DNA of 64,000 bases from Rhodanobacteraceae bacterium. GTDB taxonomy: Bacteria; Pseudomonadota; Gammaproteobacteria; Xanthomonadales; Rhodanobacteraceae. Position numbers and translations under genes: made by a program. Each line of letters starts with the position of its first letter. Positions within the stretch are counted from its first letter, which is position 1. This document shows, piece after piece, positions 5,528 to 30,517 of the stretch. Where the stretch lies: positions 186,001-250,000 of the forward strand of contig JAEUPP010000039.1 in NCBI GenBank assembly GCA_016790075.1. Reading direction: 5' to 3'. The notes below the pieces were generated by a model that was given only the letters and a program-made list of their open reading frames with translations, did no database searches and was not told the origin of the DNA.

Positions 5528-5546
5528 ATTCCCGCCACCTCCACCA
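5528..5546 (+). repeat. ssrA 3' end, copy 1 of the att-like repeat
   Basis: The 19-nt sequence ATTCCCGCCACCTCCACCA forms the 3' end of tmRNA. The same 19 nt recur exactly at 5726 and with two changes at 8370, which marks this as an integrase attachment site. ssrA is a well known target of tyrosine recombinases. Confidence 0.85.
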
Positions 5547-11289: not shown

Positions 11290-11318
11290 CCTGCGCCGAC
11301 GGCCAGAGAAACGAGACG

Positions 11319-12011
11319 ATGAACGATACACGGCACGAAAACGATGCGCTGGAAGCCCAGCCCAGTACGGCTCCCGCGGTGCCCGAGCTGTCGCAGCTCC
11401 TGGTGCATCTGCTCAAGGGCGTGCTCTACCGCGAGGACGACGAGCGCCTGTGGGCCAGCCTGCTGCGCCTGCAGGTGCGGGTCCGGGAGCAGGCGGCGGT
11501 GCTACTGCTGGACCTGATACTGGACGAGGCCGAGGGCTACGCCTTCCTCAAGAGCCGCCCGGACCCGGAAGACTCCGAGCGAACACCCCGCCTGCCCCGG
11601 CTGGTCGCACGCCGGCCGCTGTCCTATCCGGTCAGTCTGATGCTGGCGCTGCTGAGAAAGCGCATGGCCGAGTTCGACGCCGGAGGCGGCGACACGCGGC
11701 TGGTGCTCGCGCGCGAGGAGATTGCGGAACTGATGCGGGTGTTCCTGCCCGATGGCACGAACGAGGCCCGGCTGATCGACCAGGTGGACGCGACGATCAG
11801 CAAGGTCGCCGACCTGGGCTTTCTGCGCCGGCTCAAGCCCGCCGCCGGCACGGGGCAGGACCGGGGCCACTACGAGGTGCGGCGCATCCTGAAAGCCTTT
11901 GTCGACGCCCAATGGCTGGCGGAGTTCGACGCGCGGCTGGAGGGCTACCGCACGGCGCCGTCGGGTGCTGCGGGCGAACGCGGCGCGGCGCGGGAGGCGG
12001 CTGATGCGTGA
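11319..12011 (+). CDS. jetB: Wadjet type I component JetB (DUF4194, MukE/KITE-like)
   Basis: 230-aa DUF4194 protein corresponding to the KITE subunit (MukE-like) of the Wadjet complex. Features: [19 protein letters not shown] near the N-terminus, [19 protein letters not shown] in the middle, and [19 protein letters not shown] near the end. A low-complexity Ala/Gly/Glu tail follows. It starts with ATG 11319 after GAAACGAGACG and overlaps jetC by 8 nt, so expression is coupled. Confidence 0.92.
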
Positions 12012-15000
12012 AGCGCCGACACTCGGCCTGGATTTCGTGGCCGATGACAGCCGGGTGGGTTTCCGCCTGCAGCGGCTGGAAGTGCTGAACTGGGGCACCT
12101 TCGACCGGCGCGTCTGGCGCTACGAGCTCGACGGGCGCAATGGCCTGCTGACCGGCGACATAGGCTCGGGCAAGTCGACCCTGGTCGACGCCGTCACCAC
12201 CTTGCTGGTGCCCGCGCATCGCGTGGCCTACAACAAGGCAGCCGGGGCCGATGCACGCGAGCGTTCCCTGCGTTCCTACGTGCTTGGCCACTACAAGAGC
12301 GAGCGCAATGAAGTCACCGGCAGCGCACGCCCGGTGGCGCTGCGCGATGCCTCCAGTTACTCGGTCATCCTCGGCGTGTTCCGCAACGAGGGATATGACC
12401 AGGCCGTGACCCTGGCCCAGGTCTTCTGGCTGAAGGACCCGCACGGCCAGCCCGCGCGCCTGTTCGTCGCGGCCGAGCGCGCCCTGAGCATCGCCGGCGA
12501 CTTCAGCGGCTTCGGCAGCGACCTCAGCGGACTGCGCAAGAAGCTGCGCGGCGCGGGCGGCGAGCTGTTCGACAGCTTCCCGCCCTACGGGGCCTGGTTC
12601 CGCCGCCGGTTCGGCATCGAACACGAACAGGCCCTGGAGCTGTTCCACCAGACCGTTTCGATGAAGTCGGTGGGCAATCTCACCGACTTCGTGCGCAGCC
12701 ATATGCTGGAGCCGTTCGATGTGGGCAGCCGCATCGAGGCATTGATCCGCCACTTCGACGACCTCGACCGCGCCCACCAGGCCGTGCTCAAGGCCAAGCG
12801 CCAGGTCGAGCTGCTGGCGCCGCTGGTCGAGGACGGCCAGCGCCATCTGGCGCTGGCCACGGAAATCCAGGGCTGGCGCGGCGGGCGTGATGCGCTGCGG
12901 CCGTATTTCGCCCGGCTCAAGGGTGAGTTGCTGGACCGCCGCCTCGCCCTGCTGGAGGAAGAGGCCACCCGGCTGGACCACCAGATCCAGCGTCTGGACA
13001 CGCAGCGGGATAACGAACGCGGCGAAATCGCCAAGCTGGAGCGCGACCTGCGCGACAACGGCGGCAACCGGCTGGAGGAGCTGAGCGCCGAGATCCGGCG
13101 CCTGGAACTGGAGAAGACCCAGCGCCAGCACAAGGCAGGCCGCCACACGGAACTGCTTGGGCGTATCGACGAAGCACCGCCGGCTGACGAAGGCGCCTTC
13201 GTCGCCCAGCAGCAGGCCATCGCCAACCGCGCCGAAGGGCTGCGCGAGCACATCGCCGACCTGGTCAACCGCGAGCGCGAGGAAGACTTCGCCTTCCGCA
13301 AAGGCCGTGAAGAACACGCCGCCCTGTCCGACGAGATCGACAGCCTGCAGCGGCGCAAGAGCAACATCGACGGCGCCCAGGTCCGCATCCGCGACGCGCT
13401 GTGCGCCGCACTGTCGATTGACGAGGACGAACTGCCCTTCGCGGGCGAACTCATCCAGGTGCGCGCGGAAGAACGCGACTGGGAAGGCGCCGCCGAACGG
13501 CTGCTGCGCGGCTTCGGCCTTGCGCTGCTGGTCCCGGAAACGCATTACAAGGCCGTTGCCGAGTGGGTGGACCGGCAGCATCTGGGCGCCCGGCTGGTGT
13601 ACTTCCACGTGCGTCCGCGCAAGACCGTGCAGGGCGCAGCGCTGCATCCGCACTCGCTGCTGCGCAAGCTCGTCATCAAGCCGGATTCGCCGCACTACGA
13701 GTGGCTGGAGCAGGAGCTGCGCCAACGCTTTGACGTGGCCTGCTGCGATACGGGCGAGCAGTTCCGCCGCGAGGCCCGCGCCATCACCCGCGCCGGTCAG
13801 ATCAAGGACCCGTCGGGCCGCCACGAGAAAGACGATCGCAGCCGCATCGGCGACCGCAGCCGCTACGTGCTTGGCTGGAGCAACGCCGACAAGCTGCGCG
13901 CCCTGCGCGACCAGCGCGAGCGCCTGGAGGCCAAGCTGGCCGAGCTGGGCCAGCGCATGGCCGAGCTCAAGCAGGCGCATCAGGAACTGGAAGGCCGCCT
14001 GGTGACACTGGCCCGGCTGGAGGAATTTACGCGCTTCGCAGACATCGACTGGATGAGCCTGGCGCGCGATATCGCGGGGCTGGTCGATGAACGTTCACGG
14101 CTGGAAGCCGCCTCGAACACACTGCAGGAACTGGCGCGCCAATTGAAGGCGGTGCAGCAACGCCTGGCCGAAACCGAGAGCAAGCGCGCCGAGGCGCTGG
14201 GCAAGCGCGGCGAGGCAAGAGCCAAGCGCAGCGCCGCACAGGAACTGCGCGACCAGGTCAGCGCCATCATCGAGGCGGCGCCGCTCGATCTGGCCCGCAC
14301 GGCACGCCTGGACGGCTGGCGCGCCGAGGCGCTAGGCGAACACCAGCTGTCGGTGGAGTCCTGCGACAACCGCGAACAGGAGGTGCGCAAGTGGCTGCAG
14401 GAACGCATCGACGCCGAGGACAAGCGCCTGGCGCGTCTGTCCGAGCGCATCGTCAATGCCATGCGCGGCTTCAAGGAAGAATTCAAGGCCGAGACGGTCG
14501 AGATGGACGTGAGCCTGGCCGCACTAGCGGAATACGAGCGGCTGCTCGCCGGCCTCAGGAGCGACGACCTGCCGCGCTTCGAGGCGCGTTTCAAGGAGCT
14601 GCTCAACGTCAACACCATCAACGAGATCGCCAACTTCAACGCCCAGCTGGCGCGCGAGCGGGAGACCATCCGCGAGCGGGTCGACTTCATCAACCAGTCG
14701 CTTGAGGCCATCGACTACAACCCGGGCCGCTTTATCAAGCTGGTGGCGCAGCCCAGCCCGGATGCCGAGATCCGCGATTTCCAGCAGGACCTGCGTGCCT
14801 GTACCGAGGGGGCGCTGACCGGCTCGGCCGATGAGCAGTATTCGGAAGCCAAGTTCCTGCAGGTCAAGGCCATCATCGACCGCTTCCGCGGCCGTGAAGG
14901 GCTGGCCGACGCCGACCGGCGCTGGACGGTCAAGGTCACCGACGTACGCAACGGGTTCCTGTTTTCGGCCAGCGAGCGCTGGCGCGCCGACGGCGCCGAA

Positions 15001-15393
15001 CACGAGCACTACTCGGACTCCGGCGGCAAGTCCGGCGGGCAGAAGGAAAAGCTGGCCTATACCGTGCTCGCCGCAAGCCTGGCCTACCAGTTCGGGCTGG
15101 AATGGGGCGCCGTGCGCTCGCGTTCATTCCGCTTCGTGGTCATCGATGAAGCCTTCGGGCGCGGCTCGGACGAATCGGCCCAGTATGGGCTGCGCCTGTT
15201 CCAGCAGCTCAACCTGCAGCTGCTGATCATCACGCCGCTGCAGAAGATCCACATCATCGAGCCCTTCGTGGCCAGTGTCGGTTTCGTGCACAACGAGGGC
15301 GGCCGGGACTCACGGCTGCGCTGCCTGTCGATAGCGGAATACCGCGCGCAGAAGGCCGCGGGAAATGCACCCGACGGCAGCACGCCCGCATGA
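12004..15393 (+). CDS. jetC: Wadjet type I ATPase JetC (SMC/MukB-like)
   Basis: 1129-aa SMC-like motor. Walker [11 protein letters not shown] is at residues 51-60, then two long coiled-coil arms (about 330-480 and 640-860) around a central hinge-like domain with the [15 protein letters not shown] segment. Near the C-terminus are the ABC signature ([10 protein letters not shown]) and Walker B ([13 protein letters not shown]). It extrudes DNA loops to sense small circular DNA. ATG 12004 is chosen: it overlaps the jetB end and begins the conserved head domain, whereas the open frame further upstream lies inside jetB. It overlaps jetD by 4 nt (ATGA). Confidence 0.95.
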
Positions 15394-16568
15394 GCTGGAC
15401 CACGCCAACCGACCTGCACGCCCAGGTCCAGCGCTTGTGGGACCGCGGCGACCTGCTGCGCGCCGCCGTGTCGGATGCGCTTTCCTGGCCGCTGCGCCTG
15501 AGCCTGAAGGCACCCAGTGCCGCAGACCTGGCCGATCGCTTCGAGGCTGCACGCGACTGGGTGCGCACCCTCACCGGCACCGCGCACATCCGCATCGAAT
15601 GGCGCGAGTGGAACCACCGCGTGCTGGGTACGCAGCAGCTTCCCGCGGCGGTCTGGCTGGACAGCCTGCCTAACGCCCTGGCCCTGATCGGCAAGACGCG
15701 CCCGGCGCAGCGTTTCACGGCCTTGTGGCAGCAGACGGCCGCCAAGCAGCCGGCGCTGCTGGCCTGGCTGTCCAGGCGCCCGCTAACGGCGCTGGACCTG
15801 GCCGATCGCTGGGATCTGCTGCTGGCCGTCGTCACCTGGCTGCAGACCCATCCGCGGCCCGGAATCTACCTGCGCCAGGTCGACGCCCCCGGCGTGGACA
15901 GCAAGTTCATCGAGACCCACCGCGGCGTGCTGACTGAGCTGCTGGACCTGGCCTTGCCGCCCGGGGCGGTCGAGCCTGCGGCCACGGGTGTGGCGCAATT
16001 CACTCGCCGCTTCGGCCTCCGCGACAAACCCGTACGGATCCGCTTTCGTCTGCTCGACCCGTCGCTGCCCAGCCTGCAGGGCTGCGCCGGACTGCCCGAC
16101 ATCACACTGGACGCAGAAAGTTTTGCCAGCCTGGCGCTGCCGCTGGAGCGCGTGTTCATCACCGAGAACGAAGCCAATTTCCTCGCCTTCCCGGCGGCCT
16201 CCCATGCCATCGTCGTGTTCGGCTCGGGCTACGGCTGGGATGCCCTGGCGCGCGCCGTGTGGCTGCATCATTGCCGGCTGTACTACTGGGGCGATATCGA
16301 CACCCACGGCTTCGCCATCCTCGACCAGCTGCGTGTCCACTTCCCGCAGGTACGTTCCTTCCTGATGGACCGGGAAACACTGCTGGCGCACCGCCTGCAC
16401 TGGAACGAGGAAACCAGGCCGGCACGCCAGGACCTGCCTCGCCTCACCACGGAAGAAACAGCCGTCTATGACGACCTTCGCTTTGACCGGCTCCAGCCGC
16501 AGCTGCGGCTGGAGCAGGAGCGTGTCGGTTTCGACTGGCTGAGTGCGCAGGTGGATGGTCTTGCCTGA
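15390..16568 (+). CDS. jetD: Wadjet type I nuclease JetD (DUF3322/DUF2220, Toprim-like)
   Basis: 392 aa. The N-terminal DUF3322 part is followed by a C-terminal DUF2220 topoisomerase VI/Toprim-like domain with the acidic motifs [14 protein letters not shown] (conserved Glu) and [18 protein letters not shown] (DxD). These are the metal-binding residues needed for plasmid cleavage. The start overlaps the jetC stop (ATGA at 15390). With jetABC this makes a complete, intact-looking type I Wadjet system with no frameshift. Confidence 0.94.
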
Positions 16569-16632: not shown

Positions 16633-19152
16633 ATGAGTGATTTCCAAGCGCAGTACGCCCTCTGGGACGAATTCCTGAAACTCTGGCCGGTTTCTCGGCT
16701 GGCCACGATGAGCTTGAGCGAATACAGCCAGGCCGGTTCGCGCGAAAGCTTTACCTACTGGATCGAATCGCGCCTGGACCAGTTGGGCAGCATCTGGGGC
16801 GGCTCGGCGTTCAAATTCGGCGTGTACTCGCGCAAAGCCAGTGAAGAAAAATCCTCGGACGCCGGGCTGCGCTATTCCGATACCCATGCCTGGTACGCGT
16901 CCCTGGGCGCTACGGCGGACGAGGCCTTTGCCAAGGTCCGCGCTCATGTCGTCCAGGTCGCGACCCTGGCGGCGCAGAACAATGTGGACGGCATCGACGC
17001 ATTCGACCAGCTGGGTGATGCGTTCAAGTGGAAAATTGCCTTTCACTACCAGAATCGGCAGGCGCCGGCCATCATCGATATCTTCAAGCGCGCGCCGCTC
17101 GCGGCCTATCTGGGCACCGACACTGACCTGTCCATGGCGACGCTGCACAAGGCCGTGCTGGCGCGGCGTCCCGCCGGGCTGGGCCTGCTCGAATTCGGCC
17201 AGCAGGTCTGGGAGACCTGGAGCCGCAGGAATCTCGCGATCTGGAAACTCTCACATGGCAATCCACCGTTCAGCGACCGCGAACGCCAGGACTATCTGGA
17301 CGGCTGCTGGGCCGTCATGGGGCGTGACACGGGCAAGGACCAGGGCAGGAAATTTGCCGAGGCGCCGGTAGGCGCGCTGTTCTTTCTGTGCCACGGCAAC
17401 AGTCCACAGTGCCTGGGACGGTTCACCTCCGAGGCCATGCCCAGCGCCCGGGGCGAAGACTGGCTGCAGCGCCGCTACCAGTTGCTCCGCTCCGCACAAC
17501 GCACGGACCGCTATACCCGGCATCACAAGGGCTGGTCGCCCCAGGGCAATACGACCTTCTGGCGCGTGGCCGCCGACGATCTGCCGGAATTCGAGAGCAG
17601 CCTGCTCCGGCCTTACTTCGGCATAGGGCTTGAGGAACTGGCCACGCTGAACGAGGCTGATCTGATCGCCAATGCGAGCAGCGAACGGCCATCGGCTGTG
17701 TCTACCGCCTCACCCACCCCCGTCACCACCACTGCCCGCAAACCGCCGGTACCAGCCCTCAACCGCATCTACTACGGCCCGCCCGGCACCGGCAAGACTT
17801 ACGCGCTGAAACGGCTGCTGCAACGTGACTATGCACGCCCGGCGCAGACGCTTTCCGTGGAGGACTGGCGGCAGCAGCTCATTGTGGAAAAAGTAGCATC
17901 GTTGAAATGGTGGGAAGGCGTGGCGGCGGCGCTATATCAGCTCGGCCGCAAAGCCACGGTGACCGAACTCGTGGCCCATCCCTATATTCAGGCGATCGCA
18001 GCTGCCAAGGGACGTAGCAACGGCATCCGGGCCACGCTCTGGGGAACCTTGCAAAATCACACCGTGCGCGAATCGGTCACGGTCAATCTGAGCCAGCGTC
18101 AGGCGCCGGCCGTTTTCGACAAGGGCAGTGGCTCGGTCTGGCAGTTTGCGGGCGACTGGCAGGAAGCCTGTGCCGACCTGATCGACCTGGTCGACCGGAT
18201 CGAACATGGTCCGCAGGATTCCACAAGCCCGCCGCGCTATCGCTTTGTTACCTTCCACCAATCCTTTGGCTACGAAGAATTCGTCGAAGGCCTGCGGCCC
18301 GTACTCACTGGCGATGCCGAACTCGGCGAAGTGGCCTATGAAATCCGTTCCGGGGTTTTCAAGGAACTGTGCCGCCTGGCGCGGCAAGCCCCAGACCAGC
18401 GCTTCGCCATGGTCATCGACGAGATCAACCGCGGCAATGTCAGCAAGATATTCGGCGAGCTGATCACCCTGATCGAGGCGGACAAGCGCGATCCGCTGGA
18501 CGGCAGCCCGCCGCCGGCCGAAGTCACGCTGGCCTACTCCGGTGAAAAGTTCTCGGTGCCGGCCAATGTCGACATCATCGGCAGCATGAACACGGCCGAC
18601 CGTTCGCTGGCGCTATTGGATACAGCCTTGCGCCGCCGCTTCGAGTTCGTCGCCCTGCTGCCCGATACCCGCGCCGAAAAAGACCCGGCCGACCCCGACA
18701 GCGCGCCGCTGGCGGGGCTGGTGGTGAGCATGGACGCGGCAGTCATTGACATCCGCCTGCTGCTGCAGCGGATCAACGAACGCATAACCGCGTTGTATGA
18801 CCGGGATCACACCCTGGGCCATGCCTATTTCACCGGCCTGAGCCGCTTCGATGATGGCCCCGCACGTTTCAGCGAGCTCTCCGCACTGTTCCGCAAACGG
18901 GTTATTCCACTATTGGAAGAGTACTTTTTTGAAGACTGGCGCAAGATCCATCTGGTTCTGGGCGACAACCAGAAGCGCGACCCGGCGCTGCGGTTCATCC
19001 TTGAAAATGAAGAACACGCACAGGGGCTGAATGCCCTGTTCGGCCCCGACTCCGAACTGGACAGCTACGCCATCCCGCGGCGTTATGCCATGCAGGAGAC
19101 TGCGTTCTCCGCGCCGCTGGCCTATATCGGCATCTATCAGACGCTGGCCTGA
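16633..19152 (+). CDS. mcrB: McrB-type GTPase/AAA+ motor of a McrBC modification-dependent restriction system
   Basis: 839 aa. The AAA+ domain has Walker A YYGPPGTGKT at about residue 380, FVTFHQSFGYEEFVEGLRP, Walker B AMVIDEINRG at about 592 and the McrB signature SMNTADRSLALLDTALRRRF at about 650. The 370-residue N-terminal half should read the DNA modification. Its segment from IWKLSHG (about residue 207) through QGNTTFWRV looks like an EVE/PUA-type base-flipping domain, by resemblance only. ATG 16633, 64 bp after jetD on the same strand; mcrC follows at once. It restricts DNA carrying modified cytosine or a related mark; the exact base is unknown. Confidence 0.9.
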   Translation: MSDFQAQYALWDEFLKLWPVSRLATMSLSEYSQAGSRESFTYWIESRLDQLGSIWGGSAFKFGVYSRKASEEKSSDAGLRYSDTHAWYASLGATADEAFAKVRAHVVQVATLAAQNNVDGIDAFDQLGDAFKWKIAFHYQNRQAPAIIDIFKRAPLAAYLGTDTDLSMATLHKAVLARRPAGLGLLEFGQQVWETWSRRNLAIWKLSHGNPPFSDRERQDYLDGCWAVMGRDTGKDQGRKFAEAPVGALFFLCHGNSPQCLGRFTSEAMPSARGEDWLQRRYQLLRSAQRTDRYTRHHKGWSPQGNTTFWRVAADDLPEFESSLLRPYFGIGLEELATLNEADLIANASSERPSAVSTASPTPVTTTARKPPVPALNRIYYGPPGTGKTYALKRLLQRDYARPAQTLSVEDWRQQLIVEKVASLKWWEGVAAALYQLGRKATVTELVAHPYIQAIAAAKGRSNGIRATLWGTLQNHTVRESVTVNLSQRQAPAVFDKGSGSVWQFAGDWQEACADLIDLVDRIEHGPQDSTSPPRYRFVTFHQSFGYEEFVEGLRPVLTGDAELGEVAYEIRSGVFKELCRLARQAPDQRFAMVIDEINRGNVSKIFGELITLIEADKRDPLDGSPPPAEVTLAYSGEKFSVPANVDIIGSMNTADRSLALLDTALRRRFEFVALLPDTRAEKDPADPDSAPLAGLVVSMDAAVIDIRLLLQRINERITALYDRDHTLGHAYFTGLSRFDDGPARFSELSALFRKRVIPLLEEYFFEDWRKIHLVLGDNQKRDPALRFILENEEHAQGLNALFGPDSELDSYAIPRRYAMQETAFSAPLAYIGIYQTLA

Positions 19153-19165
19153 GGTGCGCCGGCCG

Positions 19166-20545
19166 ATGGCGCGATCGATCCACGAATTCGACACGCTGGC
19201 AGCGGAAAATCCGGCCGCCTCATTGGCTGCCGCTTCAACGGACGGTCTGCACACCGTGCCGGCGAACGTATTCGCCTGGCTGGAGCAACAGGCATTGCGC
19301 TGCACCGGGAACGGCACGGCGGCCTGGCTGCGCCTGACCCAGCGGCGCAACCTCAGGGCCGTGCAGCTGCGCAGTTTTGTCGGCGTGATCCGCGCACCGG
19401 ATGGTTTCCAGATCGAGGTACTGCCCAAGATCGGCAAGGCCCTGGACGGCGGCGAAACACAGGCGCGGCAGTTGCTGTTACGCATGCTCAGCTGCCTGCG
19501 TGGATTCCGCCATATCCGTACCGACCGCGCCGGACTCGCCGCAGTACACATGCCGCTGCTGGAGGTCTTTATCGGCGAATTCCTGCTGAGCGTTGCACCT
19601 ATCGTGAAACGCGGTCTGCACAGCGACTACCGGCTGCAGCAGGGCAACCTCTTTACCCTGCGCGGCAAGCTGCAGATCGCACAGCACCTGCGCCAGAACC
19701 TGTGCCGGCGCGATCGCTTCCATGCCGAATACGACGAGTTTTCCACCGACCGCCCGGAAAACCGGCTGCTGCATGCTGCATTGCGCGAGGTGCTGTCCTG
19801 GACCACCGTACAGGAACACCAGCAACTGACGCGCGAGCTGTGTTTCGCCCTGGCCGAGGTGCCGATGTCGGAACACGTCGCCGCGGACTTCCGCCGGGTG
19901 CGGCTGGACCGCGGCATGGCCGGCTACGCCGACGCACTGGCCTGGGCCCGGCTGATCCTGCAGGACGAATCGCCACTGACCGGAAGCGGCGTGCATGACG
20001 CCCCTTCCCTGCTGTTTCCGATGGAAGCCGTGTTCGAGGCCTTTGTCACCCACCATCTCGCGCGCCGCCTGGCACCGGGACTCACCCTGCGGCCACAAGC
20101 AAGGAGCCGGGCGCTGGTCAGGCACCAGCAGCAGGACTGGTTCCAGCTGCAGCCGGACCTGCTGATCCAGGCATCCGGCACCCATCGCTGTGTACTTGAC
20201 GCAAAGTGGAAATTGCTGGACCAGGACAAGACCGGCGCCCGCGCCAAATACGGCCTGGACCCGAGCGACTTCTACCAGCTGCACGCCTACGGCCAAAGCT
20301 ATCTCGACGGCCAGGGGGACGTGGTACTGATCTACCCGCGCACCGACACCTTCGACCAGCCCCTGCCCGTGTTTGAGTTCCCGAAGTCCCGCGGCCTGCG
20401 CCTCTGGGTACTGCCGTTCTGCCTGCAGCACGCCCAGTTGCTGCTGCCGGCCTGTGGCGGGCTGGATGGGATGCTGATGCCGGCGCCACAACGGCCAGCG
20501 CACGGGAAGCCACACCCGGCTGGCCTTCTCAATTCCACGCAATGA
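19166..20545 (+). CDS. mcrC: McrC-type endonuclease subunit
   Basis: 459 aa. The McrC N-terminal region contains NLRAVQLRSFVGVIRAPDGF and QIEVLPKIGK. The C-terminal PD-(D/E)xK nuclease carries Asp in QLQPDLLI (about 328) and the DAKWK motif (about 344). It cleaves DNA when activated by the McrB ring. ATG 19166 is 13 bp after mcrB stops; a GTG at 19154 is an in-frame alternative. The last 40 residues, after the nuclease core, are low-complexity. An intact pair with mcrB. Confidence 0.9.
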   Translation: MARSIHEFDTLAAENPAASLAAASTDGLHTVPANVFAWLEQQALRCTGNGTAAWLRLTQRRNLRAVQLRSFVGVIRAPDGFQIEVLPKIGKALDGGETQARQLLLRMLSCLRGFRHIRTDRAGLAAVHMPLLEVFIGEFLLSVAPIVKRGLHSDYRLQQGNLFTLRGKLQIAQHLRQNLCRRDRFHAEYDEFSTDRPENRLLHAALREVLSWTTVQEHQQLTRELCFALAEVPMSEHVAADFRRVRLDRGMAGYADALAWARLILQDESPLTGSGVHDAPSLLFPMEAVFEAFVTHHLARRLAPGLTLRPQARSRALVRHQQQDWFQLQPDLLIQASGTHRCVLDAKWKLLDQDKTGARAKYGLDPSDFYQLHAYGQSYLDGQGDVVLIYPRTDTFDQPLPVFEFPKSRGLRLWVLPFCLQHAQLLLPACGGLDGMLMPAPQRPAHGKPHPAGLLNSTQ

Positions 20546-21213: not shown

Positions 21214-21532
21214 ACGGATGTCGAGCACGCGCACGCCAGCCAGCAACTGCTGCCGCAACGACTTGGCCTGAGTCACGCGGATATCGTTGCCGTCGAGCGC
21301 ATAGGTCATCGTGTCGTGCGTGCCGGGCAGCGACGGTCGGCAAGCCGGCGCTGGCCTGGCCGGCAAGGTTCGCCATCCAGGCGGCGTTTTCGCAGCTGAT
21401 GCCTGAATCGTGCGAATACGCGAAGTGATTGTGTGCCAGTGCAGCCGTACCCGGCAGCAGGGCCAACAGCAGCGCGCCAGCCAGGGCCCTGGTCGGCTTG
21501 TCGAAATAACGCTTTATGATTCCTTCCTTCAC
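21214..21532 (-). pseudogene. Broken 5' end of a secreted PI-PLC-like phospholipase
   Basis: The sequence is a copy of the 5' part of the intact gene at 28528-30120: KRYFDKPTRALAGALLLALL, HNHFAYSHDSGIS, then SLPGTHDTMTYAL and TQAKSLRQQLLAGVRVLDIR in another frame. A frameshift lies near 21350, and about 10 residues are missing between TYAL and TQAK. The body and crystallin domains are replaced by the hsdR fragment. The leader upstream (to about 21630) is also duplicated at 30121-30234. Confidence 0.8.
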
Positions 21533-21721
21533 CTAAGGGTCGTGTTGGCGGGTGCCGCTGGGGCCGCCCGCTCACCGCGTTGCGGCTTGGTGGAAAGAGT
21601 GAAACTGCAACGTGGAGGAATTATGGAAGCAACAATTTTATTGGATTCAGGCTATTCCCGACCCGGCAACCCTGATCCGGTCGCTGACGATTTGCCCATC
21701 GCTGCTGGAGCGGATGCGGTG

Positions 21722-23050
21722 CTACGAAAGTCCGCCAAAGAACCAGTGCCACAGCCGGTGGCCGCCACGCAAGATCGCACGGACCAGAGGACCAAACATC
21801 TCGCATAACCAACACGCGCGGCGATCCGGCGGAAAACGAATCGCCGGCCAACGTTGAACGCATGTAGCGGGCGTCGTGAACCGCCGCGCATCAGCCTTCA
21901 TTGCAGCAAGAATTTGTTCGACAGATCGGCAGGGAAACGCCTCCATGTATAGCACCGCCACACCGGCGACAAAAGCGCAGGCGCCGGAGGGGTCGCTGAA
22001 GTCGTTGTCCTCACGCCCCTGGTCGTCAATGGTCGTAAGGTTGGAACCCGGGCCTAGTAGTAGATCGTCGCGTGCAGCCCAAATCCCAACCGTGCTTACA
22101 GAATCAGTAATGAGACTAGCTTGTTGGTTGGCAAGCGTATCGCGATCGACAAGATATTCGCCGACTGGAACTACCTGATCAGCGGACGCCGGGTAACTCA
22201 GTTGAATGTGCTTGCCGTAACCCTGTTCTTCCGCAGCACAGAAAATCAGCGCGCGGTCGAACTGCCGTAACCGTCCTGCCACAATGCCAAGCACATCCTG
22301 ACCGTCAGCTCCTTGGTTCCGTATCGCCGCGCAGAAACTCATGCTGACCACACGCACTTTCCAACGATGGATGACCCAGGACAACATCAGGAGCAGGTCT
22401 GCCAGCGTGGTGTAGTTTTCATAGTCGATTTTCGCGACCTGGGCAGCAATCACATCGGCATCGGGCGCGACCGAACGGCGTTCGCTCCCAACAGCCACTC
22501 TCGCGCCGATGACACCAGCACATTTGGTGCCGTGGTCATCCAAGTCGTGGGTACATGCGTTGATCCAGTTGCAACTACAAAAATCCGCGTGGTCGCGCCG
22601 ACGCGGAAGTGCGTCGAACCCGAATGCTATGCCGCTATCCATTACGGCAACGCGCTGCGAGCGCCCGGTGAGTTGCTCCGGCCAGTTTCCCAGATCGCGG
22701 ATGCGCCAATTCCGCGCAGGCCGTGAATCATCGTTCAATAGCACCTCGCCTGGGTCTAGTTTTTCCAGACCCTCACTTTTCAATCGGCTTCTGGTGATTT
22801 TGAGACCGAAATTTGTCGAGGAAGCCTTCTTGTCGAACCGGCGCTGCCTTGATCGGAGGACACCGGCATCTTCACTGCGCAAGATGGCGTAGCCAAGGAG
22901 GCTGTCGAAATAAACAGCCCCCTGTGCCACTCGCGCCAGACTCAGCCCCCGATCCCGGCAAAGATCCCGTGGAGTCAGAATTTCCTTGCCGCGCGCCGAC
23001 GCTGCAAGAGCCAGCGACGTCGATGCCGTCACGGTCAGGTCTTCGTACAT
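21722..23050 (-). CDS. Subtilisin-like (S8) serine protease, divergent
   Basis: 442 aa. The S8 triad can be traced: Asp138 in RVAVMDSGI, His173 in DDHGTKCAGVI and Ser355 in DPSGACAFVAG (the usual GTSxAAPHVAG, altered around the Ser). The oxyanion Asn position (normally AAGN) reads AAEE, so activity may be low or changed. No signal peptide is evident. The N-terminal 130 residues are unlike known propeptides. ATG 23050 after GAGGGG is chosen; an in-frame GTG at 23074 is possible. Last gene of the CHAT/unknown/S8 operon, 41 bp after the preceding stop. Role inferred: effector or processing protease partnered with the CHAT protein. Confidence 0.75.
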   Translation of the reverse strand: MYEDLTVTASTSLALAASARGKEILTPRDLCRDRGLSLARVAQGAVYFDSLLGYAILRSEDAGVLRSRQRRFDKKASSTNFGLKITRSRLKSEGLEKLDPGEVLLNDDSRPARNWRIRDLGNWPEQLTGRSQRVAVMDSGIAFGFDALPRRRDHADFCSCNWINACTHDLDDHGTKCAGVIGARVAVGSERRSVAPDADVIAAQVAKIDYENYTTLADLLLMLSWVIHRWKVRVVSMSFCAAIRNQGADGQDVLGIVAGRLRQFDRALIFCAAEEQGYGKHIQLSYPASADQVVPVGEYLVDRDTLANQQASLITDSVSTVGIWAARDDLLLGPGSNLTTIDDQGREDNDFSDPSGACAFVAGVAVLYMEAFPCRSVEQILAAMKADARRFTTPATCVQRWPAIRFPPDRRACWLCEMFGPLVRAILRGGHRLWHWFFGGLS

Positions 23051-23091
23051 GTGCCTACCCCTCGCCGGAATCACAACGCAGCAACAACCCG

Positions 23092-23790
23092 CTAACGCAA
23101 CCCTTCATCGCCGTCGCCATCGTCTGTTTGAAGTTGGCCGCTATTACAATCCTGCCAATCGATCGGAAACACAGTCGCTGTGCAGCTCGATCCCGGCAAG
23201 CATGGCAGGTCCTTGGTTACGCCGGCATCGAAATACTCAAAATGAACACAGCGACTGGGTACACCCTTACTATTCGGGTGCCTGCCCTTCTTTTCGTCTT
23301 CCAGTTTATAAAGATAGAACGTCCCGAGATGATTTCTGCTATCGGAACGGAGCACACCCTTCGCCCACAATCCGTGCTCCAGCACCAACGGTTCGGTCGT
23401 GACGTCAATGCTTGTCCCGGAATGGTCTCCAGTATGCCTAAGGAATACTCTCCCCAAAGCGTCTTTATATACATGCATTCTGTCACGGGGTTCTATGCTG
23501 TGTGTCGATGACATTGCCCCGTGCCAGGAATCAGTGATTGAGTAGTCATGATCAGGCGACGTCTTGTTTACGAAATCATCTAATGCAGTGACCGGAAATA
23601 TTTTCCATCGCTTGAAGATTTTCTTGATCTTTGCTTTCCGACAGTGCGTTGGACCCGTAAGGAGACTTGCCGTTGCTACTGCACCACCCCGGGCCGATGT
23701 CTCGCTTTCCATACCGTCTCCTGCGCCGCTTTCGCCTGCACAACCCGAACAACACGCCACAGGCGCCATTACCGTTTTTCTGGTTTTCAT
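23092..23790 (-). CDS. Protein of unknown function in the CHAT/S8 operon, 232 aa
   Basis: I do not recognise a family. A short hydrophobic N-terminus with Cys residues (APVACCSGCAGESG) is followed by a Ser/Thr/Gly-rich linker, a basic patch (KAKIKKIFKRWKI) and a beta-rich core with scattered Cys and aromatic residues. The tail is acidic and Gly-rich (DDGDGDEG). It has no lipobox and no clear signal peptide. ATG 23790 after GGGGG is preferred over TTG 23805. It sits between the CHAT and S8 genes with gaps of 56 and 41 bp, so it is co-transcribed and could be a substrate, adaptor or inhibitor of either protease. Confidence 0.7.
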   Translation of the reverse strand: MKTRKTVMAPVACCSGCAGESGAGDGMESETSARGGAVATASLLTGPTHCRKAKIKKIFKRWKIFPVTALDDFVNKTSPDHDYSITDSWHGAMSSTHSIEPRDRMHVYKDALGRVFLRHTGDHSGTSIDVTTEPLVLEHGLWAKGVLRSDSRNHLGTFYLYKLEDEKKGRHPNSKGVPSRCVHFEYFDAGVTKDLPCLPGSSCTATVFPIDWQDCNSGQLQTDDGDGDEGLR

Positions 23791-23846
23791 AAAACCCCCT
23801 AGCAATCAGCCCGAACCGGGCCATGATGCAGAGCGGCTGCTCTGCG

Positions 23847-26800
23847 TTATCGGTGTGGCGGATCTGACAGGTACACCTCAATTCCCGCCCAGAATTTCGG
23901 ATGCCTAAAATGCGGCGACTGCCGCAGCACACGGCGCGCATCACGCGCGGCGGCGGCGACGTCGCCGGATTTCCACAGCGAATCGTGAAAGGTCTGCGCC
24001 CAGGTCGGCGCGGCGGCGTCGCTGAGTGCATTGGATGCGGCGACGACACGCCGCGCGCCGGCGGCGATAAACGCTTCCGCAAGGCGTGAAGCCGCGCCGA
24101 ATGCTGCTTCGGCGGCCACACCGGCGCCGCAGGCGCTCAGCACGACCAGTTCGGCCTGCGACGGCGAGGCCACAATCTCGGGGTAGGTCAGCAGACTCGG
24201 CCGGCGCTCCGACTCAAACCAGAGCCCCTGATAGAGCTGCCCGTAGGCAGGCGGATTGGCGTGGCCAATCACGTGCACCACTTCGGAACGCGACAGCACC
24301 GCAAGCACCCCTTGCGGTGTGTCGTCGGCGCCCATCACACGGCGCTGCGCAATGCCCTTGGCCCCGAGCAGCTTTTCCAGCGCCGCCCGTTCACGCGTTG
24401 CAAAGGGCAGGCTTTCGACCTGGGGCATGTTCAGATCGAGCAGTGTCACCAGGGCCGGCCGCGGCAAGGTGTCGATACGGCGTCGCGGGATGCGGAACGT
24501 GGTGGACACCAGCGGCTCGCTGGCCGCATCGGCGCCAGCCGCGGCTATCCAGGCCCAGGGCAAGGCGCGCGTGCCCGGCAGCGAGGCGATATGCCAGTGC
24601 CGGGCCGCCGGCAGGCCGGGATGGCAATCCTTCAGTGCCGCATGCCAATCGGCTGCCGCGGCCTCAAGCGCGGAGAAGTCTCCCGGCTCGCCGTCCAGTA
24701 CGCGCCCGAAGCGCGCAACCAGTTCCCGGTACTGCTGCAGCGGCCAGCGCCGGCATACCCGCACCACGTCCGCACGCCGGACAAGCAACAGGAATTCGTG
24801 CTCGCTCTGCAGCGGCACCACCACGGCGTCGCTTTCATCCAGCGCCTCGCCTGCCGACGGGTTCGCCAGCGCCGGAGCAAGCACGGCAGCAGCACTGGGA
24901 GTGCGCGCCAGCGCGGCGAACAGTTCGCGCTGCTTGTCCGAAGTAGCCCCCAGCACGGCAGCGGACAACACGCGCCGCAGTGGTGCGTCCAGCGCCGCTG
25001 CGGATGGGCGGCGAAACAGATGCTGCACGCTGCCCTGCTCGATTACTGCGGCAATCTGCTCGAACCCCGCCAGGTCCAACGATTCGGTTCCCGGCACCAG
25101 TAGCAGACCGAGCAGGGTCGCCTGGAGTTCGGCCAGCCGGTTGCGCGCGCTGATGCGCAAAGCCGCCGACGGCCAGCTTTCGGCCTGCCCCAATTGCCGC
25201 TCGAACACCTCACGCACGCTGGCCAGTGCACCAGCGCGGTCGCCCAGCGCGGCATGACTGGCCGCTTTCAGGCGTGCGTACTGCACCTGCAGCGCAAGAT
25301 CGTCAGCAGCGGCGAGCTCGCCAGGAAGCTGCTGCAGCGCCAGCTCCGGCCGGCCATAGGCCAGTTGCAGCCGCGCCGCAGCCAGTGCGAAATCCAGGCG
25401 CGTCAGCGCCGCATCGCTGTCCGGCGCCTGCGCCAGCGCCGCTGCGGCGAGATCGAGCTTGCCCAGGTCCATCAGCGCCTGCGCTTCGATCAGGCGCGCG
25501 GCGGTACTGCATTCGCGGTTGCCGGTGCTGCGGCAGGTATCACGCGCAGCCAGGGCCAGTGTGTTGGCGGACTGCGCCTCCCCCAGGTCCCGCAGCGCCC
25601 GCGCCAGCTGCAGCTGACTGTCAGCCCGCAGCGGCGGCGCCTCCTTCGCATCCAGGCGCGCAAGCGCGCGTTCCAGCAGGCGGCGGCGTTCATCCAGCGC
25701 ACCCGACAGAGCCGCAAGGCTGGCAAGCTTGAGATCGATCAAGGCCTGGTCAGTCGGTAACCCTTGCCCGGCGAGCACCAGCGCTGCCTGCGCGAAACGC
25801 GCCGCCGCCGCCGGCAAGTCAGCACGATAGAGGTGATAACTGCCCCAGGCGCTTTCCAGCCGTGAACGCACGATCGGCGACATCTGTGCAGCCGTCCGGT
25901 CCGCGGCGAGAAGCAGCTCCCGTGCCCGCGCGAATTCATCCAGCCGCATGTACTGGTTGCTCAGCGATACCTGCCGCGTGGCCGCCTCGATCTCTTCGCC
26001 TGCCTGCTGCATGGCCGCCAGTACGCGCTGCTCGCAGGCGACGGAAGCGGCAAAATCGCCACGGCGGGACAGCACCGTGCACAACGCGGCCTGGCTGCGC
26101 AGAGCGTAGTAGGTCACGCCTTCACGCAATAACTCCTCGTTGGCGCGGGCCAGCAGGGCCTCGGCTTCGGCGAAATGCCCCGTCCGCGAGGCATTCTCGC
26201 CCTGGGCCAGCAAGGACACTGCCGCGTGATCCGGGCGGCCCGCGGCAAGCCATAAGGTTCTGGCCTGCGCGAATGCGGCGCCGGACTCGGCCAGCAGTCC
26301 GGCACTGAGCAGGGCATTGGCCTGCGCACTGGCCACCCGGCTGCGCTTGAACGGGTCCAGCGGCAGCCACTGCAGCGGCTCTATCCGCAGCCGCGCCGTT
26401 CGCCCGGCTTCACTGCCGGCGCGCAGATAGGTCGTGTGCAGTTCGGCCAGGTGACTCCAGAACAGTACATCGCCCGTGTTGATGCAGTCACTGACCCATA
26501 CGCGTCCGCCCCCCTGACCGGACTTGATGCGCAGTTCCAGTTGCGCCGCACCCGGCGCAACCACGGCGAAACCCAGGCGGCTGGGCGGCGCGTTGATTGT
26601 GGCAAACGCCGTTTCACTGCCACGCCGGTATTCGACATCGGCCCCCATTTCTTCGAGCAGCACGGGCGCGTCGGCGGCGACCTGCAGCGAGACCGTGTTG
26701 CCTGGCGCCAGTGGCAGCGAGTACGGAACGACCGGCGCGCAGGCCGCCGAGGCTTCTGCGAGCAGGCCGGCCGCAAGCACGGCGCTTCCCCGCAACAGCC

Positions 26801-26849
26801 GGGCTGCCCATTCCCAACCGGGCGTGTTCGAGCCGACTTGCCTGGCCAT
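23847..26849 (-). CDS. TPR-CHAT protease (caspase-like), predicted exported
   Basis: 1000 aa. Basic N-terminus, then a hydrophobic stretch (GSAVLAAGLLAEASAACA) like a Sec signal peptide; a beta-rich N-domain to about 170; a long Ala/Leu/Arg-rich helical array of TPR-like repeats (about 180-650); and a C-terminal CHAT domain. The caspase-type dyad is visible: His863 in VIGHA and Cys907 in LSACGAG. CHAT proteases cut partner proteins once their TPR part senses a trigger. ATG 26849 after AGAGGGT is preferred over TTG 26882. First gene of a three-gene operon, divergent from an ECF sigma/anti-sigma pair 193 bp away. Confidence 0.88.
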   Translation of the reverse strand: MARQVGSNTPGWEWAARLLRGSAVLAAGLLAEASAACAPVVPYSLPLAPGNTVSLQVAADAPVLLEEMGADVEYRRGSETAFATINAPPSRLGFAVVAPGAAQLELRIKSGQGGGRVWVSDCINTGDVLFWSHLAELHTTYLRAGSEAGRTARLRIEPLQWLPLDPFKRSRVASAQANALLSAGLLAESGAAFAQARTLWLAAGRPDHAAVSLLAQGENASRTGHFAEAEALLARANEELLREGVTYYALRSQAALCTVLSRRGDFAASVACEQRVLAAMQQAGEEIEAATRQVSLSNQYMRLDEFARARELLLAADRTAAQMSPIVRSRLESAWGSYHLYRADLPAAAARFAQAALVLAGQGLPTDQALIDLKLASLAALSGALDERRRLLERALARLDAKEAPPLRADSQLQLARALRDLGEAQSANTLALAARDTCRSTGNRECSTAARLIEAQALMDLGKLDLAAAALAQAPDSDAALTRLDFALAAARLQLAYGRPELALQQLPGELAAADDLALQVQYARLKAASHAALGDRAGALASVREVFERQLGQAESWPSAALRISARNRLAELQATLLGLLLVPGTESLDLAGFEQIAAVIEQGSVQHLFRRPSAAALDAPLRRVLSAAVLGATSDKQRELFAALARTPSAAAVLAPALANPSAGEALDESDAVVVPLQSEHEFLLLVRRADVVRVCRRWPLQQYRELVARFGRVLDGEPGDFSALEAAAADWHAALKDCHPGLPAARHWHIASLPGTRALPWAWIAAAGADAASEPLVSTTFRIPRRRIDTLPRPALVTLLDLNMPQVESLPFATRERAALEKLLGAKGIAQRRVMGADDTPQGVLAVLSRSEVVHVIGHANPPAYGQLYQGLWFESERRPSLLTYPEIVASPSQAELVVLSACGAGVAAEAAFGAASRLAEAFIAAGARRVVAASNALSDAAAPTWAQTFHDSLWKSGDVAAAARDARRVLRQSPHFRHPKFWAGIEVYLSDPPHR

Positions 26850-27042
26850 ACCCTCTAGCCTCCGGACGTTTTCGCTTGCCAAGTAGCTTAGTCACAACAT
26901 GAAAAAAGCGTGGCGCTTGGTTATGCTCGGCGACGCGTGAAACCTGTGTGGCAGACGCTCCATTTATCGCACCCCGCCGCACTATTTCCTGGATCTCCCA
27001 ACCAGAACGATCAGCGCCAGACGCACGAAGGGGAAAGTTCCT

Positions 27043-27666
27043 ATGGAGGGAGCTGCTGACGGGTGTACCGGAGCAGAACCACCCGGTGCCGAGTTGTCGG
27101 AGTCGGATGTCGTAGGACGCCTGCCCGGCGTGCGCGCCATGATCCTGCGCATGACACGCGATACGGCGCTGACGAATGACCTCACCCAGGAAGTACTGAT
27201 CGCGGTCATCGTCGCGCTGCGCGGCGGACGGATACGCGAACCGGCAGCACTTGCCGCGTACATGCACCAGTCTGCCCGGCATATCGTCTATGCGGCGCAG
27301 CGCAAGTCGCAGCCCATCCCCGTAGCCGAGCTGCCCGAACACGATTCGTTGTGGACGGACCGGCCACGTACGCCGCTGGAGCATTGCGAAGACGATGAGC
27401 TGCAGCGCATCGCACACGAAGTGCTGGCGGAACTGCCGGTCGAGCGCGACCGGGACCTGCTGCGCGGCTTCTACCTGGAAGGCATCGACAAGAACGAACT
27501 GATGCGGCGGCTGGAGCTCACGCCCGACCAGTTCGACAAGGTACTGTTTCGCGCCCGCACCCGAATGCGTGACCGGCTGCGCAAAAAAATGCAGCAGCCG
27601 ACCGAGTCTCTGCGAGATACGGCCCCGTCCGCACTCCCTTCCGGCGGCAGAGCGAGATCCAAATGA
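27043..27666 (+). CDS. ECF-type RNA polymerase sigma factor
   Basis: 207 aa. The region 2-like part (about 20-85: VRAMILRMTRDTALTNDLTQ-EVLIAVIVAL) has the D-L-x-Q-E-V core of sigma-70 proteins. The region 4 helix-turn-helix is at about 118-180 (LAELPVERDRDLLRGFYLEG..NELMRRLELTPDQFDKVLFRAR). A Ser/Pro-rich tail follows. ATG 27043 follows AAGGGG. It overlaps the next gene by 4 nt (ATGA), the classic sigma/anti-sigma layout, and is divergent from the TPR-CHAT operon, which it may control. Confidence 0.88.
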   Translation: MEGAADGCTGAEPPGAELSESDVVGRLPGVRAMILRMTRDTALTNDLTQEVLIAVIVALRGGRIREPAALAAYMHQSARHIVYAAQRKSQPIPVAELPEHDSLWTDRPRTPLEHCEDDELQRIAHEVLAELPVERDRDLLRGFYLEGIDKNELMRRLELTPDQFDKVLFRARTRMRDRLRKKMQQPTESLRDTAPSALPSGGRARSK

Positions 27667-28295
27667 TTTCTGCGCTAGACAAACACCTGTTGCAGGCCTA
27701 TCTGCACGGAGAAATGGACGAGGCTGCGGCGGAGGCGTTCGAGATCCTCATGATCGAGCGCCCCGAACTGGCAGAGCTGGTGGACGCGGACACCGCGCTG
27801 CACCTGGGATTGGCAGCCCGGGGTACGGTTGCCCCGGCGCAGCCCGATGCCGCACCAGCAACCGTCGTTCAACTTCCCACGCCGCAACGTGTACACACGA
27901 CATCGTGGGCGCCGTTACTGGCTGCAGCGAGTGTGATGCTGGCCATAGGACTGGGGCTGGGCCGACTGTGGCCATCGCAATCCGCCGAGCTGGTTCCGAC
28001 CACCTTGCTGTCGATAGACCGGCTGCGCAACAGCGTCAGCGCCGTGCCCCAGCTGCGCCTCCCGGCAGAAGGCCAGATCGTACTCAGCGTACCGATCGCC
28101 GCAGAACCCGGCTGTACAGCGGTTGTGCGTATCGAGCAGTCTTCCACAATGCTGCAGGCCAAGGCTCGCGCGGACGACTTCGGCTTCGCCAATCTCAGCC
28201 TCGCGGCCAGGCATCTGAAGCCGGGCAAGGCGGAGGTCCTTGTCGCGTGCGATGGTCGCGAGCTTGCGCGTTATCCGGTCGAGTTCATCCGCTAG
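27663..28295 (+). CDS. Putative membrane-anchored anti-sigma factor
   Basis: 210 aa. A small N-terminal cytoplasmic helical domain (HLLQAYLHGEMDEAAAEAFE, the pattern of anti-sigma/zf-HC2-like domains but without the zinc Cys/His motif) precedes a Pro/Thr linker. One transmembrane helix lies at about 82-103 (WAPLLAAASVMLAIGLGLG), and a periplasmic beta-rich domain of about 107 residues follows. The start ATGA overlaps the sigma gene stop. No known protease site can be read. In such systems cleavage of the periplasmic part frees the sigma factor; a periplasmic CHAT protease next door is an obvious candidate, but this is inference. Confidence 0.72.
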   Translation: MISALDKHLLQAYLHGEMDEAAAEAFEILMIERPELAELVDADTALHLGLAARGTVAPAQPDAAPATVVQLPTPQRVHTTSWAPLLAAASVMLAIGLGLGRLWPSQSAELVPTTLLSIDRLRNSVSAVPQLRLPAEGQIVLSVPIAAEPGCTAVVRIEQSSTMLQAKARADDFGFANLSLAARHLKPGKAEVLVACDGRELARYPVEFIR

Positions 28296-28527: not shown

Positions 28528-30120
28528 TTACTGCGCACTGACCACAATGCTGCTGGCTTCGTCGTTGAAGTTGCCCAGACCCGATGCGTCTGCGGCAAGA
28601 GTCTTGGTGTCGCCGCGGAAGTCGCTGTGTTCGTACAGTTTGATCGTATAGCCGCTACCGACGCGGATGGAGCTGATGCTGTCGTTGCCGAGCTTGAGGT
28701 CCGACAGGTTGTAGCTGCCCGGCCGCAGGATCTGCATGCGGCCCTTGTAGTCTTCGTGCTCGTAGATCGCCGCACCCTGTACGCTGACGACCATGCTCGA
28801 CGCCTTGTTGTCAAAGCCATACGTCGACAGCGCCGGTGTATCGGAAGTAAGCACTACCGATGCACCGCCTTTGAGCCCATTTTCGTACAACGTGACCATC
28901 AGCCCATCAGCAATCGAAATCGAGCTCAGCGCATCGTTGCCTATCGACAGCTGAGAAAAACGGTCGTAGGTACCGAGTTCGAACGATTTCCGCGTACCTG
29001 CGTAGTTGGCATCGTTGAACAAGGTCACGCCGTCGTTATTGAGCGAAATCACCCGGTCAATCAGACCATGGCCTGGGAAATCGGCATAGACGATGCCGGC
29101 AAAATTGATGTCGGCCGATTCCAGATACTCGTAGGTCAGGATATTGGTGCCTTCAAAGGCGATGGAGCAGGTACCGAGGAAACAGTCTATGCGCGGAAAA
29201 TCCGGGTATTTGTTCGGCGAGGTGAGTGTGGTCAGTCCGGTCAGCAGACGGGACGCGCCGGTTCCCGGGCTGGAGTGGCCGCTGGCGACAAAGTAAGGGA
29301 AGGAACCAACCGAGCCCGAAAGAAAATTGATATAGAAATTGCGTGTACCTTCCGTGCTGGTATTGGACTCCTGGAACTGCTCCTTGACGTCGACCCATTT
29401 GCCGTAGAGATCCCAATTGGTCGTCAAGGTGTAGTTGTCCTGGATATTGGCGCTGGCATAGTCGATGCCAAAACGCTCATTGACGAAATTGGCCAATACG
29501 ACGATCTTGCCGCGCACATCACCCAGCCGCGTTGTACTTGACGAAGCCAGTTCGCTGCTGCTGTTCTTCCAGAAATAGCTCGAATAGAGCGCATCGTTGA
29601 CATAGGTATCGAGCACGTCCTCGAAACTCATGCTGCCGTCGTTGCCTTCAGGCTTCAGTCGCATCAGCACGGTTTCCGTGGGGTGATCGGCCAGAAAATC
29701 CGTTACAGCCAGAAGAACGTCATCAAAATCAAAACCGGTATTGATGGAACCATGGTAGATATCGAAATCGTTCTGCGCAGTGCGGCGGCAACGGATATCC
29801 AGCACACGCACGCCAGCCAGTAACTGCTGCCGCAATGACTTGGCCTGGGTCATGGCGATATCGGTTGCGACGGCCTGTCCCGGCGTGAAATCGTCGTCGT
29901 TGAGCGCATAGGTCATGGTGTCGTGAGTACCCGGCAGCGACATGTCCGCAAGCCGGCGCTGATCGGCGACATTGGCCATCCAGTCGGCATTTTCGTAGCT
30001 GATGCCCGAATTGTGCGAATACGCGAAGTGATTGTGCGCCAGCGCCGACGTACCCGGCAGCAGGGCGAGCAGCAGCGCTGCGTGCAATGTCTTGGCTGGC
30101 TTGTCGAAGTAACGCTTCAT
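28528..30120 (-). CDS. Secreted PI-PLC X-domain phospholipase with beta/gamma-crystallin repeats
   Basis: 530 aa. Signal peptide (KTLHAALLLALLPGTSALA) and a bacterial-type PI-PLC domain to about 350 with the two catalytic His candidates, His66 in SLPGTHDTM and His123 in IYHGSI. Two beta/gamma-crystallin modules follow: VTLFNDANYAGTRKSFELG with FSQLSIGNDALSSI, and IYEHEDYKGRMQILRPGSYN with LGNDSISSIRV. These bind Ca2+ in many proteins. It probably cleaves phosphoinositide-type lipids or GPI-like anchors outside the cell. ATG 30120 follows GGAGGA; upstream in-frame starts fall in non-coding leader. A broken copy lies at 21214-21532. Confidence 0.87.
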   Translation of the reverse strand: MKRYFDKPAKTLHAALLLALLPGTSALAHNHFAYSHNSGISYENADWMANVADQRRLADMSLPGTHDTMTYALNDDDFTPGQAVATDIAMTQAKSLRQQLLAGVRVLDIRCRRTAQNDFDIYHGSINTGFDFDDVLLAVTDFLADHPTETVLMRLKPEGNDGSMSFEDVLDTYVNDALYSSYFWKNSSSELASSSTTRLGDVRGKIVVLANFVNERFGIDYASANIQDNYTLTTNWDLYGKWVDVKEQFQESNTSTEGTRNFYINFLSGSVGSFPYFVASGHSSPGTGASRLLTGLTTLTSPNKYPDFPRIDCFLGTCSIAFEGTNILTYEYLESADINFAGIVYADFPGHGLIDRVISLNNDGVTLFNDANYAGTRKSFELGTYDRFSQLSIGNDALSSISIADGLMVTLYENGLKGGASVVLTSDTPALSTYGFDNKASSMVVSVQGAAIYEHEDYKGRMQILRPGSYNLSDLKLGNDSISSIRVGSGYTIKLYEHSDFRGDTKTLAADASGLGNFNDEASSIVVSAQ

Positions 30121-30444
30121 AGTTTCTTCCTCCACTTCAGGGGTGTGTTGGCGGGCGCCGCTGGGGGTCACCCGTTCACCGTATTCCGGCTTGGTGGAAA
30201 GAGTGAATCCGCAACGTGGAGGAAATATGGAAGCCGGGAAATATTCGGCGGCCGCAGATTCGGATCCTGCCGGCAAGGACTGAAGAGTGGTCTTTGGCCC
30301 GCGACTGCGGCGCATGCGCTGCAACGGGCGGTGACCGGAACGCAACGGCCGGCATCGCCGCGAGCCGGTCTTCACGGCGCTGGGTTCAAGCCCGCCGCTC
30401 CACTGCCAAGGAGGCACTGCCAACCGATGCATCGCAACCGTATG

Positions 30445-30480
30445 AATGCAAAAAGCCGCCATAAGGCGGCTTTTTGCATT
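30445..30480 (-). terminator. Rho-independent terminator of the proline-rich protein gene
   Basis: A perfect 16-bp stem (AATGCAAAAAGCCGCC with its complement) and loop ATAA. On the minus strand it reads GGCGGCTTTTTGCATT after the loop, a typical GC stem followed by a T-run, 38 bp after the stop of the 30518-31678 gene. Confidence 0.85.
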
Positions 30481-30517
30481 TTGGTGCATTTTCAGCACCA
30501 CACGACAGGTCAATACC

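Follow-up and report, generated by a model that had tools for sequence, protein, structure and literature searches.

In the type III-E CRISPR system Craspase, which comprises the TPR-CHAT protein Csx29, Csx30 and CASP-sigma, the CHAT protein acts upstream of a sigma factor, and the account of this system in PMC10028731 also draws a comparison with RseA/DegS-type regulation. A second precedent is ECF54, a group of extracytoplasmic function (ECF) sigma factors with CHAT and subtilase genes in their context, described in section 3.3 of PMC8999054 as lacking an anti-sigma factor. Beyond Craspase and the ECF54 remark, nothing on sigma/anti-sigma-CHAT cassettes was found in the literature covered, which included few subscription journals. 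The present analysis concerns a five-gene block at positions 21722-28295 of a 64,000-nt stretch of DNA (contig JAEUPP010000039.1, positions 186,001-250,000; ‘the window’, to whose positions all feature coordinates refer), in which a TPR-CHAT protein, an orphan protein and an S8 subtilase are encoded divergently from an ECF sigma factor and a probable anti-sigma factor. We tentatively read this block as a member of sigma-factor-linked TPR-CHAT peptidase cassettes, in which CHAT would contribute to proteolysis of the anti-sigma factor. The arrangement is real and recurrent; it is wider than these five genes and has an added partner family.

All five open frames claimed in an earlier, sequence-only reading of this DNA are present. 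On the minus strand lie the S8 subtilase gene (21722-23074; Pfam Peptidase_S8, E 4.9e-16), the orphan gene (23092-23805; 237 aa from the first TTG or 232 aa from an internal ATG, with no Pfam match) and the CHAT gene (23847-26882; 1011 aa from the first TTG; Pfam CHAT, 6.4e-23). On the plus strand, the ECF sigma gene (27043-27666; Pfam Sigma70_r2, 1.8e-5; NCBIfam sigma70-ECF, 2.1e-15 and above its cut-off) overlaps at its end with the gene of the anti-sigma-like protein (27663-28295), and the CHAT operon begins at the same short divergent intergenic region (26883-27042, from the sequence). The locus resembles Craspase in that a TPR-CHAT protein of Csx29-like fold is associated with an ECF sigma factor and an inhibitor of that factor, and differs from it in that the CHAT protein appears to be exported and the inhibitor to be a membrane protein. 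With ECF54 it shares CHAT and subtilase in the context of the sigma gene, a likeness of gene context, and unlike ECF54 it has a probable anti-sigma gene overlapping the sigma gene. As in RseA/DegS, the membrane anti-sigma factor would have an outer part reachable by a periplasmic protease, although this would be a CHAT cysteine peptidase and not DegS. The absence of CRISPR, stated earlier, was confirmed by the lack of CRISPR-like direct repeats in the 64-kb window; of Cas7-11 and a CRISPR array, by which a Craspase locus is recognised, neither was seen, there being no Cas protein among the ten proteins scanned by PADLOC, although Cas7-11 was not sought genome-wide. Profiles of one partner group (A5, see below) and of the anti-sigma family matched no solved chains at E 1, and no direct comparison with Csx30 was made. 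CRISPR-free, apparently exported TPR-CHATs, if truly tied to ECF sigma/anti-sigma pairs, would point to a CHAT-based control of transcription older or wider than Craspase.

The proposed TPR-CHAT architecture was recovered by Pfam for its CHAT half, which scored 82.1 bits against a cut-off of 24; Pfam TPR did not match the window protein at E 0.1, and the TPR half was recognised through the closest relative (TPR_12 at E 2.5e-6, slightly under the bit cut-off) and through the predicted fold. The AlphaFold2 model (pLDDT 72.4, pTM 0.68) predicts an N-terminal beta domain at about residues 52-131, a TPR helical-repeat solenoid at about 136-594, and a C-terminal CHAT domain. Foldseek matched this model to separase and Csx29, supporting a kinship of the fold with both; a second set of fold matches covers chiefly the TPR part and leaves room for families outside it. 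DdvA, a transmembrane anti-sigma factor (PDB 8rot), ranked eighth in Foldseek (TM-scores 0.38 and 0.42); the CHAT-domain sequence profile, with eight matches at E 10, did not retrieve it. Regulation by DdvS/DdvA is treated in PMC4374960. The His/Cys dyad is intact, as had been claimed: H874 and C918 (in the 1011-aa numbering, which adds 11 to the earlier H863 and C907) are invariant in 11 aligned sequences, the window protein included, and in a separate set of 12. The CHAT protein is a predicted cysteine peptidase, of putative proteolytic activity. A hydrophobic stretch near residue 33, together with N-terminal hydrophobic stretches seen by eye in homologues, agrees with the signal peptide suspected previously, and the protein is probably exported. 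When the CHAT protein was used by itself as the query of a locus search, no relative was retrieved. Counting the window's own genome in each case, 26 of 61 genomes had a CHAT match at E 1e-3 and 33 of 348 genomes of the order had one at 1e-30; the CHAT profile at 1e-50 was matched in 1 of 369 genomes of the class, namely the window's own (for order and class, at most two candidates per genome were scored).

The sigma factor fits the sigma2 and ECF superfamily definitions, and its family profile matches structures of ECF sigma factors. Its gene position, its membrane segment and an alignment of 16 family members suggest that the anti-sigma factor is probably a single-pass membrane protein, with its strongest hydrophobic stretch at residue 82. 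It does not qualify as the zinc type, since zf-HC2 scored 15.1 bits against a cut-off of 22.2 (E 0.025), and 2 of the 16 aligned members had this domain at E 0.01. Nineteen residues past the membrane stretch (about residues 119-122) lies the motif DRLR; throughout the family, an Arg is conserved soon after the membrane segment, often within [DE]xxR, whether or not a CHAT gene is nearby. [DE]xxR is similar to separase sites. As a CHAT-specific cleavage site it was rejected as discriminating, being found in 25 of 38 anti-sigma factors with a CHAT neighbour and 8 of 11 without; this split used the full-length TPR-CHAT profile, and at least two of the 38 (L106, L129|3068) are doubtful anti-sigma factors.

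The recurrence of sigma factor and CHAT parts, the broader claim of the sequence-only reading, was borne out in other bacteria, where genes of this sigma family repeatedly lie close to CHAT genes. Among 43 strong matches to the sigma family in 61 genomes, a CHAT-domain gene occurs within 5 kb of 21, or of 12 out of 34 when the nine profile seeds are subtracted. A looser, full-length TPR-CHAT profile gave 24 of 43, and it also matches TPR-only proteins, such as a kinase with TPRs in L031; with the CHAT-domain profile, G060:C147, G056:C24 and G055:C16 drop out. When only listed CHAT places and an 8-kb limit were used, linkage was seen for 18 of the 43 sigma-family genes versus none of 75 generic ECF genes (Fisher 7.8e-10, seeds included; like all the linkage statistics, it ignores relatedness among genomes), and for 9 of the 34 non-seed genes. 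In the reverse direction, 43 of 77 distinct CHAT-domain genes (at least 600 aa, first 92 loci) have a sigma-profile gene within 5 kb. The order sigma, anti-sigma, small gene, CHAT is found in several fetched neighbourhoods, with extra genes in Marinicella and one Alteromonadaceae record, and some records from Saprospiraceae and Acidobacteria likewise have sigma genes of ECF type close to CHAT. At locus L157 of T. aquaticus, which has a relative of the window's sigma factor, CHAT adjoins the anti-sigma gene on the same strand; this CHAT falls outside the 16 best blastp matches of the window CHAT, and the sigma-CHAT link may therefore have had more than one origin. A second sigma/anti-sigma/CHAT locus, with CHAT convergent, is present in the window's own genome (contig 28, L112 5731-10719).

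The data do not support the five neighbours as one conserved set; the exact set was found in no other genome examined. The same-genus sample consisted of eight genomes, the window's own included, the genus being inferred as Tahibacter. The CHAT-orphan-S8 trio is present in two of the eight (as is the match to the orphan profile), i.e., in one of the seven others. That genome, G005, has the three genes in the same order, with aligned identities of 43, 28 and 39% for CHAT, orphan and S8, respectively; its sigma relative is on a different contig, which ends just past the sigma gene. Relatives of the window sigma factor at 49-71% identity occur in six other same-genus genomes.

A feature newly recognised in this analysis is a family of CHAT partners, termed X, to which the orphan can be joined. 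At many CHAT genes, the gene directly upstream encodes a small protein, which by eye often carries a signal peptide, or else a fusion of a similar domain with an S1 trypsin (three of the four fusions scanned match Pfam Trypsin). Searches from three family members retrieved only genes adjoining CHAT (eight matches each, six distinct proteins). The partners have in common a YYVYL...VExF core and, at the C-terminus, a tail, e.g., QTDDGDGDEG, NQDDEGSGEEP or DGHGTGSDGEG. The window orphan, encoded downstream of CHAT, ends in an acidic Gly/Asp tail of this type, QTDDGDGDEGLR, and its G005 relative has a strong N-terminal hydrophobic stretch; the AlphaFold2 model of the orphan was poor (pLDDT 36.5). 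A plain HMM search from the orphan found the G005 relative only. In hhalign, the orphan pair aligned with seven X proteins at a probability of 92.8 (E 4e-7, for a single comparison) over 159 columns reaching the C-terminus, and the seven-member group aligned with the trypsin-linked group at 77.9, while the direct comparison of the orphan with the trypsin-linked group (A1 versus A4) failed at 3.7. By these profile alignments, the orphan is a remote and diverged relative of family X.

CHAT genes of this kind often have as a neighbour the gene of a small, fast-evolving protein that ends in an acidic Gly/Asp tail. This was judged by counts in which a tail is called when the fraction of DEGNSQ residues among the 14 at the C-terminus reaches 0.57, a threshold set after the first tails were seen. 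With CHAT genes defined by the CHAT domain, the tail was found in 18 of the 46 genes that immediately precede CHAT, versus 7 of 255 genes tightly coupled to the following gene and 43 of 676 others; the earlier CHAT definition gave 18/49, 12/267 and 37/604, respectively. A Shine-Dalgarno artefact was rejected as the cause of the tail, since only those 7 of the 255 tightly coupled genes show it. A broad first comparison of tail fraction between 47 upstream genes and 758 controls gave a Mann-Whitney p of 0.0013, and under a strict cassette definition the tail was present in 13 of 24 versus 42 of 583, the 24 including at least four untagged anti-sigma factors by eye (L054, L060, L062, L097). Downstream of CHAT, which is the position of the orphan, 7 of 38 genes had the tail (p 0.0006 versus the tight controls), and a rank test on tail-residue fraction in 37 such genes showed no excess (p 0.34). 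Among loci fetched later, the tail was seen in 1 of 1 by the strict rule (versus 17 of 269) and, from a set of 12 such loci, in 3 of 3 by a looser rule. Nine of the 12 offered no suitable gene upstream of CHAT, the neighbour being missing, truncated, on the opposite strand, an anti-sigma gene, or too long (L136, 421 aa). The three later tail-bearing partners are related to earlier ones, and the confirmation is weak. At the T. aquaticus locus L111, a 115-aa protein with the tail HQPDEGGDGDPR follows sigma and anti-sigma, though CHAT is convergent. It is conceivable, though unlikely, that exported TPR-CHATs recognise highly divergent partners by a free Asp/Glu/Gly-rich C-terminal tail in the TPR groove and thereby couple envelope signals to sigma release, which would be an undescribed recognition system.

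The third member of the trio, the S8 protein, has no clear N-terminal signal by hydropathy, and its best solved sequence match is an intracellular subtilisin (7xr8, 2.6e-9). The triad D146/H181/S363 is kept in both members, i.e., in the window protein and its G005 relative, and the activity of the protein is uncertain because the oxyanion Asn appears to be replaced. The S8 profile at 1e-15 was matched in 1 of 348 genomes of the order, the window's own (at most four candidates scored per genome, G005 apparently being outside the sample).

In the mechanism that we tentatively favour, the anti-sigma factor would hold the sigma factor at the membrane, and an envelope signal would activate the periplasmic TPR-CHAT, perhaps through binding of a tail-bearing partner by the TPR solenoid. 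CHAT would then contribute to proteolysis of the periplasmic part of the anti-sigma factor, the intracellular-looking subtilase may act on the cytoplasmic side, and the freed sigma factor would raise transcription of both operons. The tail-bearing partners and the dyad offer an immediate experimental handle on this little-studied, testable signalling arrangement. Several observations weigh against such a mechanism. First of all, no sigma gene accompanies the G005 trio within the 13.9 kb examined, a stretch bounded on one side by the contig end, and the 62-71% sigma relatives in G001, G002, G005 and G007 have no CHAT-domain gene within 5 kb, the contigs in G002 and G005 being short or ending there. 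Within the sigma family at large, the 5 kb on either side of 22 of the 43 genes are free of CHAT-domain genes, some of the contigs being short. The [DE]xxR motif is about equally common in anti-sigma factors with and without a CHAT neighbour, and a shared promoter motif was not found upstream of 44 sigma genes, where the commonest gapped word occurred in 3, as against 3-4 in shuffles. The S8 protein appears to be without the usual oxyanion Asn. Lastly, several tail-bearing partners (trypsin fusions, L035/L036, L074) have no signal peptide by eye, and therefore the tail may be in a different compartment from CHAT.

The same 22 CHAT-free sigma genes would be expected if the sigma/anti-sigma pair sensed the state of the envelope unaided, and CHAT, partner and protease belonged to its regulon as an inducible proteolytic or effector module of the periplasm, in which CHAT does not act on the anti-sigma factor. 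We regard this alternative as almost on a par with the mechanism that we tentatively favour. The neighbours of CHAT loci do vary as effectors do, and include S1 trypsin, haem peroxidase and a Ser/Thr kinase with DUF4384; however, the CHAT linkage of the sigma family is far above that of generic ECF genes, and in the Craspase precedent CHAT stands upstream of the sigma factor.

It is improbable that the sigma pair lies beside the CHAT-orphan-S8 operon in this strain by chance, with no functional connection. The sigma-free trio of G005 is what such chance would leave, as is the presence of sigma relatives in six other same-genus genomes and of the trio in one; against it stand the divergent intergenic region common to both operons, the recurrence of the sigma-CHAT linkage, and the repeats that bracket the block. 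The latter derive from a PI-PLC-X/beta-gamma-crystallin gene (28528-30513, minus strand, by Pfam) on one flank and a PI-PLC/crystallin gene remnant (21214-21630, minus strand), a partial direct copy of 29791-30234, on the other; direct repeats of parts of this gene (D1, D3, D4, D5) flank the five genes at 81-87% identity and a spacing of about 8.6 kb, a pattern that insertion of the block, or duplication of the PLC gene around it, would leave. Third-position G+C is lower in the S8 (0.62) and orphan (0.52) genes than in the CHAT, sigma and anti-sigma genes (0.73-0.77). PI-PLC relatives were also noted in two other same-genus genomes, with an internal stop codon in one.

The ‘defence-rich island’ of the sequence-only reading is real as to the neighbours. 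PADLOC identifies a JetABCD (Wadjet) operon at 9817-16568, and McrB-like and McrC genes (McrC by Pfam) come next, at 16633-20545; beyond these neighbours nothing indicates a defence function of the five genes. An anti-phage or abortive-infection module like Craspase or the CHAT-gasdermin systems is very unlikely: Wadjet and McrBC are nearby and PMC7159879 describes peptidases of caspase and trypsin type in conflict systems, but CHAT appears to be exported, PADLOC assigned nothing to CHAT and orphan and only a weak ‘subtilase’ match (2.1e-5) to S8, a tblastn search of 50,697 phage records with CHAT gave nothing at 1e-5, and Cas matches and CRISPR-like repeats are absent as described above. A tmRNA gene lies upstream of the defence genes, at 5194-5546. 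Such genes are a common insertion site of islands. A large RHS-repeat protein is encoded at 51603-55856.

Other CHAT loci showed further neighbours. An animal-type haem peroxidase lies between anti-sigma and CHAT in marine gammaproteobacteria (L094 3205-4686, by Pfam; L082 3351-4823, by eye), and a Ser/Thr kinase with DUF4384 is encoded directly upstream of CHAT at L053, L063 and L066. In G050 (L034 5085-6097), a run of similar frames of 80-82 aa, probably a tandem repeat, precedes the CHAT gene.

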